Assembly (NCBI RefSeq): GCF_029360775.1 | Contig: NZ_JARKMZ010000007.1 | Span: 1 to 64,000, forward strand | Direction: 5' to 3' | Source of the DNA: Daejeonella sp. H1SJ63 | GTDB taxonomy: Bacteria; Bacteroidota; Bacteroidia; Sphingobacteriales; Sphingobacteriaceae | Length of the DNA stretch: 64,000 nt | In this document: positions 53,772-56,516 of the stretch, piece after piece | Numbering within the stretch: the first letter of the stretch is position 1 | Layout: each line of letters starts with the position of its first letter | Made by a program: the position numbers and the translations under genes | Notes under the pieces: model-generated | Seen by the model: the letters and a program-made list of their open reading frames with translations, nothing else | What the model was told of the DNA's origin: nothing | The model's database searches: none

Positions 53772-54533
53772 TTATGGCAGTAATGGCGCAATCTGTTCAG
53801 ATGAGGTAACTCCTGGTGCAAGTTCAATAACCCTGAAATTACGGAAATACATTTGTGCACCCTCAGCCTCAAGACACAGGTATCCCTTTTTCTGAGTGGA
53901 TTTACTGATACCATTCACGAATTTTCCGTTAACGGCAAGCTTGATCACACCATCAACACAAACCACATCATAGGTATTCCATTCTCCCCTGCCCTTAGCG
54001 CGGTTTTCTATCGACTTACTTCTTTCCCCTCTTGGATTGTCGGGCGTAGTATTTACTCCCTGAACTCCAAAAAGTTCACCATGAACGTAGGCTATCGGAG
54101 GTTTAACCCCATCTCTCAAATTAAGATTCACCCAATCAAGTTCCAGCATCTGTACTTCAACCCCGTCAGGAAGAGGATTTTTACCCTTAGGATTAGCACC
54201 ACTCCATACAAACACACCAGAATTACCTCCTGGTTCCATATGCTTCCATTCCACATGGAGAATAAAATTCTCATATTGTTTTTCTGAACGCACAACTCCA
54301 ATTGGAAGTCCGGTATTGGAAAGTGTTCCATCTTTCATCACCTTCCAGGTATCTTTTGTCGTGTTGACGTTTATCCATTTTAATTTGCTCTCTTTCTCTT
54401 TTGATTTAGATAACACCGCATCCATACTGGTTGATGTTCCAAATTCAAACATTGTTTCCTGCGAATAAGATATCTTGCTACCAATCAGCAGAATCCCAAG
54501 CAACATTAGTCCTCTTTTTAATGAGCTATTCAT
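53772..54533 (-). CDS. DUF1080 / 3-keto-disaccharide hydrolase-like protein
   Basis: A secreted protein of about 253 residues with a concanavalin-like beta-sandwich, the DUF1080 family recently linked to hydrolysis of 3-keto-glycosides. Blocks seen are [69 protein letters not shown] and [19 protein letters not shown] start at the ATG at 54533 because a clean signal peptide (ending ISYSQ) begins there; the frame extends nine codons further up. It would act after a Gfo/Idh-type oxidoreductase that makes the 3-keto sugar, and such a gene lies upstream. Confidence 0.85.
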
Positions 54534-54560
54534 AATTTGTTTTTTCAGTCCTAAAATCAT

Positions 54561-54803
54561 TCTATATTTTTTGTTGTATTTTGTTTCTAGCTGCTAAGAA
54601 TTATATAAAATTTTAGCACTTGCAAAGATGTTAAAGTGTAAGGCTTATAAATCATTCATGAAAGATTTCCCCCTTTTTGCGTCTTAGCGTCTTTGCGAGG
54701 CCTTTTTTAAAAAAATATTACAATTGACGACTTTATAATTTCTACTACCAATATTATTACACAAAACAAATAACCTCTCGCAAAGACGCTAAGACGCAAA
54801 GGT
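54561..54803. other. Repeat-rich spacer downstream of the GxxExxY gene
   Basis: AT-rich non-coding sequence containing a 24-base arm at 54676-54699 that is the exact inverted complement of 54777-54800, separated by 77 bases. Apart from this inverted repeat and the DUF1080 promoter region, nothing else was found. Confidence 0.6.
54676..54800. repeat. Perfect 24-bp inverted repeat
   Basis: Arms TTTGCGTCTTAGCGTCTTTG plus CGAG (54676-54699) and its exact complement (54777-54800) flank a 77-base AT-rich centre. The right arm doubles as the left boundary of the GxxExxY unit. Perfect 24-bp complementarity is far beyond chance and implies a mobile or REP-like origin. Confidence 0.8.
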
Positions 54804-55202
54804 TTATAAATTATTAACAATTCTAGTTATTCCATTTTTAATAAAGGGTTCGTTGAAATTAATTAGCAATCCAAGTCTGATTCCCGCAACTTTTAAATAC
54901 GTTAGTAATTGCTTAGGATGAACTGGTGCGATCGTTTCAACTGATTTCAATTCAACAATTACTTTGTTTTCAATAATTAAATCTGCCCTAAAACCAATTT
55001 CCATTTTCAACTCGTCCCAAATTATCGGAATACTTTGTTGTCTTTCAACATTTAATCCCTGTTTACGTAACTCATAATACATTATTTCTTCATAAACCGA
55101 TTCGAGCAAACCTGGCCCAAGTTTATAATGAACATGGTAAGCCGTGTTTACAATTATTGATGATATTTCGTTTTCTGTCATTCACTTAGCGTCTTGGCGA
55201 GA
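54776..55202. mobile_element. Candidate GxxExxY inverted-repeat unit
   Basis: A 427-base unit consists of the GxxExxY gene and inverted ends: TCTCGCAAAGACGCTAAG at 54776-54793 and its complement with one mismatch at 55185-55202. The gene fills the unit almost completely, with its stop three bases from the left repeat and its start four bases from the right. No target-site duplication is evident. It sits between two genes that otherwise belong to one utilisation operon. There is no transposase, so any movement would depend on another enzyme or on the encoded nuclease-like protein. Confidence 0.5.
54804..55181 (-). CDS. GxxExxY family protein (PD-(D/E)XK-like)
   Basis: A 125-residue protein. 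The family signature G-L-L-E-S-V-Y stands at the end of a first helix (LGPGLLESVYEEIMYYEL), and a nuclease-like core follows: GFRADLIIENKVIVELKSV, giving D, then E-x-K, then a helix with HPKQLLTYLKVAG. The D-ExK pattern matches the PD-(D/E)XK nuclease fold. Such proteins are small, often multi-copy, and of unknown role. The gene is bounded tightly by inverted repeats and interrupts the otherwise co-directional series of sugar genes, suggesting a passenger or selfish origin. Confidence 0.9.
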   Translation of the reverse strand: MTENEISSIIVNTAYHVHYKLGPGLLESVYEEIMYYELRKQGLNVERQQSIPIIWDELKMEIGFRADLIIENKVIVELKSVETIAPVHPKQLLTYLKVAGIRLGLLINFNEPFIKNGITRIVNNL

Positions 55203-55208
55203 CAAACC

Positions 55209-56516
55209 TTACAAAACTTTAGTCACACCCGGTATTGCGGGTGGTGGAACCGGCCATTTTAAATCCCAGCTATACTGATAAAAATCGGGGCCCAGAACCT
55301 GATTGGAATTCATTGCCTGTTCCCATGTTATATTCTGACCACTGTAAGCTGCCATCCTGGCCATAATTCCCAGCATGGTACTATTAGCCATCATCTCTCC
55401 ATCATTCATAGGCTTTCCGGCTCTGATTGATTCAAAAAGTTCATTATGCTGTACCTGATACATATCTTTCTTTTCGCCCTGATACTCCCAGTTATTTTTA
55501 CCGCTGATTTTGTGAACGTTACCCTGATAAAAGGCCGTACCTTCAGAGCCTATGATTTCAACAGAATTTTTGGAAGCACATCCATCCTGCTGACGGCAGA
55601 AATTATATCCCTTGATACCGCCGGCAAAGTCAAACTCCAAGGCAAAATGATCGTAAATATTACCGAACTTCTCTTCAACTCTGGATTGTCTTCCTCCGGT
55701 GCCAAAAGCTTTCAAAGGCATCTGGCTGCCTATAGCCCAGGTCATCATATCCAGATTATGGACAACCATTTCAACGATAAAATCGCCCGAAAGCCAATCG
55801 TAATAGTACCAGTTACGCATCTGATATTCCATCTCTGTCCATTCCGGTTTACGCTCGAAATACCAGAGTCCTCCACCATTTCTTGTAGAATTAACCATTT
55901 TCACATCCCCAATCTCACCATTCTGAACCCGGCCAAACAACTCACGTTTCGGTTGGTCATAGCGGAAAGTGAATCCTGAAACCAGCGACAAACCTTTCTC
56001 TTTGGCCTTCTTTGCAGCTGCCAGAACTTTTCTTACTCCCGGAGCATCAACCGCAACCGGTTTTTCACAGAATATATGTTTACCGGCATTCACGGCAGCT
56101 GTTAACTGCTCCGGACGAAATGCAGGCGGGGTGGTCAGTAAAACCACATCAACCCCTGAGTCAATCAAACGCTGGTAAGCATCAAAACCAACAAATCTGT
56201 TTTCGCTGGGAACCTTTACTTTATCCGGATGTGCTTTAAGCAAAATATCATAAGATGAATCCAGGCGATCCTGAAAAACATCAGCCATTGCTGTAAGAAT
56301 AACGTTCGGATCTGCTTTTAAAGCCTGACTGGCGGCACCGGTACCTCTTCCTCCACATCCGATTAAACCTACTTTCAATGTGTTTTTACTTCGGGCAAAT
56401 GTGGGATTTTGAAATCCCACATTTAACCCAATTGTACTTCCAAGTACTACAGCGCCGGTTGATTTCAAAAATGATCTACGGTTTGTAGCCCAGTATCCAG
56501 GCATATTTTCTTTCAT
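55209..56516 (-). CDS. Exported Gfo/Idh/MocA-family oxidoreductase
   Basis: An NAD(P)-type sugar oxidoreductase of 435 residues. The twin-arginine signal is NRRSFLKSTGAVVLG. The Rossmann loop is VGLIGCGGRGTGA, and the conserved CEKPVAVD stands at the domain junction. The substrate domain has WYYYDWLSGDFIVEMVVHNLDMM, with the catalytic histidine in that block. Tat export with cofactor is common for this family in Bacteroidota. It may oxidise C3 of a glycoside, giving the substrate for the DUF1080 protein. A 28-base perfect palindrome lies in frame within the region coding for the end of the signal peptide. It follows SusD by 13 bases. Confidence 0.9.
   Translation of the reverse strand: MKENMPGYWATNRRSFLKSTGAVVLGSTIGLNVGFQNPTFARSKNTLKVGLIGCGGRGTGAASQALKADPNVILTAMADVFQDRLDSSYDILLKAHPDKVKVPSENRFVGFDAYQRLIDSGVDVVLLTTPPAFRPEQLTAAVNAGKHIFCEKPVAVDAPGVRKVLAAAKKAKEKGLSLVSGFTFRYDQPKRELFGRVQNGEIGDVKMVNSTRNGGGLWYFERKPEWTEMEYQMRNWYYYDWLSGDFIVEMVVHNLDMMTWAIGSQMPLKAFGTGGRQSRVEEKFGNIYDHFALEFDFAGGIKGYNFCRQQDGCASKNSVEIIGSEGTAFYQGNVHKISGKNNWEYQGEKKDMYQVQHNELFESIRAGKPMNDGEMMANSTMLGIMARMAAYSGQNITWEQAMNSNQVLGPDFYQYSWDLKWPVPPPAIPGVTKVL
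56397..56424. repeat. In-frame 28-base palindrome within the Gfo/Idh gene
   Basis: AAATGTGGGATTT and AAATCCCACATTT, separated by two bases, form a 13-base perfect stem inside the coding sequence. They encode the residues NVGFQNPTF just after the Tat hydrophobic region, which is cut off on export. A perfect palindrome is not demanded by the protein sequence, so an inserted palindromic repeat tolerated at a dispensable site is likely. Confidence 0.6.

Follow-up and report, generated by a model that had tools for sequence, protein, structure and literature searches.

The window, that is the whole stretch of 64,000 nucleotides analysed from Daejeonella sp. H1SJ63 (contig NZ_JARKMZ010000007.1), was found to contain a GxxExxY gene lying between inverted repeat arms within a row of genes of one direction (Table 1). 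The row was found to include SusC- and SusD-like genes, the former being presumably SusC as judged from its TonB plug and carboxypeptidase-like domains, and between 49084 and 61440 every gene, that of the nuclease among them, was located on the minus strand. An earlier, sequence-only reading had described the unit as splitting otherwise co-directional genes; it does interrupt the row, but the direction is unchanged. The GxxExxY gene was found 27 bp downstream of the oxidoreductase gene and 243 bp upstream of the hydrolase gene, and was the sole open reading frame of at least 70 aa inside the unit. No DDE or serine/tyrosine enzyme was encoded in the window unit, and no Cas1, helicase or phage genes were present among the scanned neighbours of the window gene.

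Table 1. Features at the GxxExxY locus of the window (positions are those of the window)
Feature	Position	Strand	Remarks
3-keto-disaccharide hydrolase-type (DUF1080) gene, downstream neighbour	53772..54560	-	
Arm 3	54676..54708		direct repeat of arm 1
Spacer, 59 nt, between arms 2 and 3 in the neighbouring gene-less hairpin	54709..54767		
Arm 2, 3′ of the GxxExxY gene	54768..54800		pairs with arm 1 over 54776-54793 and with arm 3 over its whole length
GxxExxY gene, 125 aa, PD-(D/E)XK nuclease fold (predicted)	54804..55181	-	E27, D67, E77, K79, Q91...Y95 motif
Arm 1, 5′ of the GxxExxY gene, outer end of the unit	55185..55202		
Gfo/Idh/MocA-type oxidoreductase gene, upstream neighbour	55209..56516	-	

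Arm 1 was located 3 nt ahead of the GxxExxY start codon and 6 nt past the stop codon of the upstream gene. It forms with the inner part of arm 2 an 18-nt pair of which 17 nucleotides are complementary, the two being 391 nt apart, so that the unit of 427 nt with 18-nt inverted ends and one mismatch was borne out as first read. A second inverted pair was formed by arm 3 and arm 2 (33 nt, 88%, 59 nt between), within which 54676-54699 and 54777-54800, lying 77 nt apart, were found to be complementary at all 24 positions; the third arm that had been noticed 77 bases farther is thus real, and it forms a hairpin with arm 2 and not a separate end. A direct repeat of arm 1 of the arm 3 type was present in two related genomes (G019 and G011) too. 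Folding of 54676-54800 as single-stranded DNA gave -28.7 kcal/mol as compared with -10.0 +/- 2.4 for shuffles (z -7.7), and the single arms folded no better than shuffles (z 0.36 and -0.30) and are therefore not palindromic individually. No Rfam family was found at gathering score within 54000-56000, the weak microRNA matches there being the hairpin itself. The arm core GCGTCTTTGCGAGA, with at most one mismatch, gave 222 matches in 20 congeneric genomes, whereas the reversed control gave 6. The inverted-arm pattern of the window is not due to chance, because the hairpin folds better than its shuffles and the arm core far outnumbers its reversed pattern.

The window protein was assigned to TIGR04256 (GxxExxY) with 145.2 bits at a cut-off of 35, as well as to PF13366, and was found to contain the PD-(D/E)XK residues, in keeping with the nuclease-like gene proposed earlier. 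The residues E27, D67, E77 and K79 were found to be invariant in 69 sequences, followed by the presence of the Q91/Y95 motif, and in 28 diverse sequences E27, D67 and K79 were invariant with E77 in at least 90%; the motifs are what we take to be E, D, ExK and QxxxY. The AlphaFold2 model (pLDDT 94.7, pTM 0.87) gave weak Foldseek matches, the best with Cas4 SSO0001 (E 1.3e-3) followed by lambda-type exonucleases, and further weak ones with the homing endonucleases I-Bth0305I (E 0.5) and I-Ssp6803I (E 0.79). In VIA-align, SSO0001 reached Z 9.4, above the tool's 'common' level, and the Holliday-junction resolvase Hjc reached Z 6.8, not above it. By sequence, no relative of solved structure was found up to E = 1. 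The 125-aa protein was found to contain 0 cysteines and would therefore have no Cas4-type iron-sulphur cluster. On the strength of the model, GxxExxY is predicted to be a minimal stand-alone Cas4/lambda-exonuclease-like PD-(D/E)XK nuclease in which the active-site residues are kept, its activity being likewise predicted.

Relatives of the protein were present in 8 of 72,556 plasmid records, and one weak PHROGs match was obtained, to a CRISPR-associated family (E 5e-4). A phage origin was rejected, one relative having been found in the IMG/VR scan and none in 50,697 phage records, and so was a known anti-phage defence, 0 families having been matched by the PADLOC defence models. In the open-access literature (PMC open subset, with subscription journals outside the search), no role for GxxExxY proteins and no association of them with repeats was found to be described, and the arm strings occurred there only in unrelated contexts.

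The genome sample comprised 41 genomes, the window's own (G000) and 40 relatives. GxxExxY genes were present in 25 of these, with 84 matches in total and up to 20 per genome, fragments included, and 66 of the 84 were examined, partial or weak ones being excluded. Inverted arms with a score of at least 15, a threshold fixed after the scores had been seen, were found at 50 of the 66 loci as against 0 of 118 shifted windows of those loci. Scores above the 95th percentile of mismatched flanks were found at 51/66 loci in inverted orientation and at 18/66 in direct orientation. A named set was made of the best 80 of 582 confirmed stretches and one viral contig, labelled Bacteroidota, Cyanobacteria, Planctomycetota, Acidobacteria, Desulfobacteraceae, Nitrospiria and others, from which 7 of 81 loci were excluded for short flanks, leaving 74 usable. 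Inverted arms at the same threshold were present at 47 of the 74 as against 3 of 266 shifted windows (Fisher p = 1e-34). Mismatched flank pairs of this set reached the threshold in 11.8% of cases, because a (CGCAAAGN)n theme is common to many arms; under the stricter null, 32/74 loci exceeded the mismatched-pair 95th percentile (18) in inverted orientation and 19/74 in direct orientation. Inverted arms at threshold were absent from 16/66 loci of the related genomes and from 27/74 of the named set, and the two sets overlap by at least two loci (L152 = L027, L202 = L127), to judge from the length of the contig and the location on it. The repeat ends that the sequence-only reading had proposed to look for at other GxxExxY copies are thus present at many of them, and inverted repeat arms are a general pattern of much of the GxxExxY family.

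The ends expected to be shared across the copies were found to be so as to the arms, which are common to many, but not as to the arm sequence, which differs between genes. The arms were found to contain repeats of the types (CGCAAAGA)n, (CACAGAGA)n, (CACATAGA)n, (CGCAACGGG)n, (TAGGATTA)n, (TACGAAA)n and more, and their pooled self-match peaks at 8-10 nt (0.33-0.36 vs about 0.25). The similarity of the arms was found to correlate with protein identity (Mantel r = 0.52, p = 0.001, 105 of 145 units), shared ancestry contributing to this value. When whole flanks, and not arms preselected for mutual likeness, were compared, with the nearest relative taken below 90% identity, the flanks of a unit were more alike to each other than to the corresponding flank of that relative in 76/105 cases upstream (p = 0.003) and in 66/105 downstream (p = 0.02). 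The proteins of L115 and L124 of G031 are 92% identical, and at either end of the unit the repeats were found to be mainly of the CACAAAG type in L115 and of the CGCAAAG type in L124. When the arms of 9 units from 7 genomes were searched in those 7 genomes, 122 of 124 matches, the units themselves and their local arrays included, fell in the genome with the cognate gene, the two others being located at G025:C71:173032 and G031:C39:73468. Arm mismatches compatible with G-U pairing and other mismatches were found at 85 vs 101 (p = 0.27) in 95 units, and this absence of a G-U bias argues that the arms act at the level of DNA rather than RNA. Beyond the GxxExxY arms of L115, L124 and L139 of G031 lies an outer motif that reads TTACTGTTCAGGT or, in complement, ACCTGAACAGTAA; its presence, on both sides in L115, suggests nesting within another repeat element.

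The arm was also found to be dispersed through genomes as pairs that enclose no gene. At least 4 arm-core matches were present in 12 congeneric genomes, of which G009 is the most arm-rich; the window-type gene has been lost there, and 20 fetched regions were found to contain 21 inverted-pair units of 78-93 bp with a variable spacer and 4 lone arms, some flanks directly outside these gene-less arms resembling each other too. In G031, all 9 of the dispersed matches to the L122 arm that were viewed were read as inverted pairs, in two of which an arm is interrupted. Among 20 dispersed arms of six genomes, a script found for 15 an inverted partner exceeding what shuffled flanks give, one more (L318) was read as a hairpin, and four were without a partner. 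The GxxExxY gene of G008 was located among gene-less units arrayed in a row, each 90-100 bp long (4 aligned units), and the gene-less units of G008 and G016 (1) were found to contain arm 1, followed by the presence of about 35 nt alignable to the 5′ end of the gene and then the 3′ arm. Because they align to the 5′ end of the gene, they seem to have arisen from the gene-bearing unit by internal deletion.

Some further intergenic elements were observed beside these units. At L081 (G008:C93:891-5168) the row of gene-less hairpins flanks the GxxExxY gene on both sides, like a BIME or REPIN cluster. The window genome was found to contain three copies of a conserved gene-less element of about 150 bp (L004, L007 and L009, at G000:C20:29934, C3:3198 and C13:120927), in which the number of octamers in the arm varies between copies. 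Other palindromic intergenic elements, carrying GGTCGGTGTT...AACACCGACC and AACGCTGACAGGGTT...AACCCTGTCAGCGTT, adjoin GxxExxY or gene-less units at L075 (G006) and at L372, L373, L377 and L378 (G017, G011, G010 and G007).

The site of the window unit was located in other genomes with the orthologue of the upstream oxidoreductase (IDH) as anchor. This orthologue was present in 11 genomes, 10 of which also had the second flank, the sequence of G016 ending inside gene-less units at a contig edge. The gene was present in G000, G019, G008 and G011, in the last with an in-frame stop. By reading, remnants of the gene start were found in G017 (about 22 nt) and G002 (about 13 nt), a single arm in G006 and G009, and neither gene nor arm in G010 and G003, so that congeneric genomes without the unit at this position, the empty sites on which the earlier proposal partly turned, do exist. 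The lone arm of G006, also by reading, is bordered on its left as arm 1 is and on its right as arm 3 is, the outcome expected of a deletion between these direct repeats. In the IDH tree, rooted on the most divergent genome (G003), the gene carriers fall on both sides of the first split of the ingroup, for which one old insertion followed by several losses would be the simplest account, repeated gain being also possible. The window copy is thus probably an old one, in place already in an ancestor shared by much of the genus, and its course since then is probably in the main one of loss.

A second orthologous site, followed in 12 genomes between a gene that we take to be of the GMC type and a putative Gfo/Idh-type gene, was found in G006 and G009 to contain the complete unit, its arms being of the CACATAG type. 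In G019 it was found to contain a decayed gene with an extra arm, and in G011, G007, G010, G008 and G002 a gene-less unit in which 27-28 nt separate these arms. One weak arm (3 mismatches) was present there in G000 and none in G003, G016 and G017. At a third site a gene-less unit was present in G009, G007 and G017 and absent in G006, G011 and G000. In the one alignment of an occupied with a vacant site, whose junction is strongly diverged, no clean insertion junction or target-site duplication was read.

Near copies of the whole unit at unrelated places were all found in one genome, G031. There L122 and L130 are 89.6% identical over 483 bp comprising the arms, the gene and about a dozen bases to the left, and L115 and L124 are 84.8% identical over 513 bp, including the outer motif about 40 bp outside the upstream arm; the DNA beyond is unrelated in both pairs. 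The further pairs L145/L146 and L129/L139 of this genome are too diverged for an edge to be placed. In distant genomes (L161, L158, L155, L157, L162, L202 and L180) similarity to the window unit was found to end at the outer tip of the 3′ arm (54776, within one base), and among the matches listed it continued past this tip in 0 of 35 loci. On the 5′ side it mostly begins at the start codon or within arm 1, not at its outer tip. The near copies of G031 and the edge at the 3′ tip support the view that GxxExxY units have moved, as judged from the comparison of sequences. The flanks of three Nostocales units and of several Flavobacterium units are alignable, which points to conserved sites and therefore to rare movement. 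The description of the unit as a minimal mobile one is accordingly supported for such units as a kind, but not, in the form in which it was put, for the copy in the window, which is probably old.

The same layout was found around an unrelated protein. Genes for four-helix bundles of TIGR02436, which is presumably the S23 family, were present in 38 of the 41 genomes, the window's own included (G000:C54:157837-158154 and seven other places in G000). Thirty loci were fetched (L233-L262) as the best-placed of many matches and two were excluded; inverted arrays, differing per gene, were present at 20 of the 28 usable ones, a rate that may be high because of this choice. The arrays have a strict period of 7 nt (self-match 0.76 at period 7), and in 20 units the G-U-compatible and other arm mismatches stood at 13 vs 9. 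With the same layout at TIGR02436 genes, units of this kind do not in general require the nuclease. The two proteins, small and unrelated, either act in analogous fashion, each on repeats of its own, or depend as guests on a common mechanism. Movement of the unit by its own encoded protein, as first suggested, can be put forward only as a proposal.

The reading that we favour, at a probability of somewhat under six in ten, is that the GxxExxY unit is the gene-bearing 'master' of a REPIN-like system with the arms as cognate sites and the gene-less pairs as derivatives. The arms, inverted arrays of gene-specific repeats of about 8 nt, would be the cognate DNA sites of the nuclease, and the gene-less pairs of about 65-100 bp would be versions of the gene-bearing unit with its interior deleted, which spread through the genome and are kept there. 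The nuclease would most likely bind the repeat arrays and nick or cut at the arms or at an extruded hairpin, whereupon host repair may copy, move or delete the unit; binding, cutting and movement driven by the protein are here what we infer. Only tentatively would we go on to a stronger claim, which we think the less probable outcome, that GxxExxY, as a minimal Cas4-like nuclease, is the sole enzyme of an undescribed self-mobilising class of bacterial mobile DNA, recognising lineage-specific 8-nt arrays and spreading both the gene and gene-less hairpins with no transposase of known type, the four-helix genes being a parallel 7-nt class.

The presence of the same architecture at four-helix-bundle genes makes a shared mover the main rival, which we consider unlikely. 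The arms would then be the substrate of other machinery, be it an unknown recombinase or the processing of inverted tandem repeats during replication and repair, with the small genes as passengers or local helpers. That two unrelated families have one layout, each with its own period (7 nt vs 8-10 nt), would fit well with this, as would the persistence of the repeats in the absence of the cognate gene, which is a second counter-observation to the favoured reading: 8 of the 12 arm-rich congeneric genomes were without the window-type gene, one of them, G016, being 82% complete with its site cut by a contig end, and only 4 of the 12 were found to contain it, one with the in-frame stop. The machinery would, however, have to act on arms that are gene-specific and track the protein, the conserved active site is not explained if another enzyme moves the units, and inverted arms at threshold were found in only 0 of 118 and 3 of 266 shifted windows. 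PD-(D/E)XK homing endonucleases exist, and the weak structural matches to two homing endonucleases would suit a system in which the nuclease cuts gene-less units, used as landing pads, and the gene is copied in via the arms. The second orthologous site, where the gene-less form is the more widespread in the genus (5 genomes vs 2 and 1 decayed), speaks for such homing, but the direction at the window site looks like loss, to judge from the gene-start remnants and the chimeric arm, and the gene-less units of G008 and G016 align to the 5′ end of the gene as deletions would, which leaves homing distinctly improbable.

An element working at the level of RNA, the arms pairing in the transcript for the processing or stability of the mRNA like the intervening sequences of 23S rRNA, is rated lower still. 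The stem would indeed enclose the mRNA, and an intervening sequence of Coxiella with an S23 ORF is described in an excerpt of PMC4990558; RNA structure as the cause of the inverted arms was nevertheless rejected, neither the GxxExxY nor the four-helix units having an excess of G-U-compatible mismatches and no Rfam family having reached gathering score at the locus. Chance or composition, that is short low-complexity repeats near AT-rich genes, could draw on the mismatched flanks of the named set that reach the threshold through their shared theme, but it is next to inconceivable against the counts in the shifted windows and in the reversed pattern.

A Y1 transposase (RAYT) as the driver of the arms was considered apart and rejected. 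Four arm-rich genomes were without a Y1 transposase, and of 45 Y1 loci only L369 was found to match any of 7 arm patterns, a dispersed unit lying about 1 kb away in that contig. In a coarse test 9 of 39 Y1 loci had inverted repeats of their own, as IS200-like genes would, with a sequence other than that of the arms.

If the gene and the repeats are one system, a common explanation would be given for a whole family of 'hypothetical' proteins and for many scattered intergenic repeats. The recurrence of the layout in much of a large family suggests an undescribed type of small mobile DNA, and the four-helix-bundle match suggests that single small genes may more generally exist in this manner, each enclosed by its own repeats. 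A Cas4-type nuclease acting on its own repeats, if this is true, is directly testable with the purified protein.

Among the known systems, the intervening sequence of Coxiella 23S rRNA, 428 nt long and carrying an S23 ORF in the excerpt of PMC4990558, is alike in its size of about 430 nt and its single ORF, and it bears on the TIGR02436 units; it differs in that its protein is unrelated to GxxExxY and in that it sits in rRNA, from which RNase III excises it as RNA. The Cas4, lambda exonuclease and RecB-type nucleases share the predicted fold and the order of the motifs, whereas GxxExxY is a protein of 125 aa with flanking repeats of its own and with none of the four cysteines by which Cas4 binds its iron-sulphur cluster. 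As in MITEs and insertion sequences, the gene-less elements with internal deletions share the ends of the gene-bearing element, but the GxxExxY unit is without a known transposase, and a target-site duplication was not seen in the single diverged alignment of an occupied with a vacant site. The closest likeness in working is to REPIN/RAYT, for which inverted pairs, gene-specific repeats and clusters beside the gene are described in an excerpt of PMC3116915: in both, a repeat-flanked gene is accompanied by dispersed inverted hairpin pairs with variable spacers, by a gene-specific repeat and by clusters beside the gene, as in G008. The enzyme of the one is a PD-(D/E)XK nuclease and that of the other a Y1 HUH transposase, REP itself is palindromic whereas the GxxExxY arm is a non-palindromic tandem array of about 8 nt, and the GxxExxY arms were not found at the Y1 genes of these genomes, one locus excepted. 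The GxxExxY unit is thus akin to REPIN/RAYT in its working but is not REPIN/RAYT, having no HUH enzyme and arms that are not palindromic.
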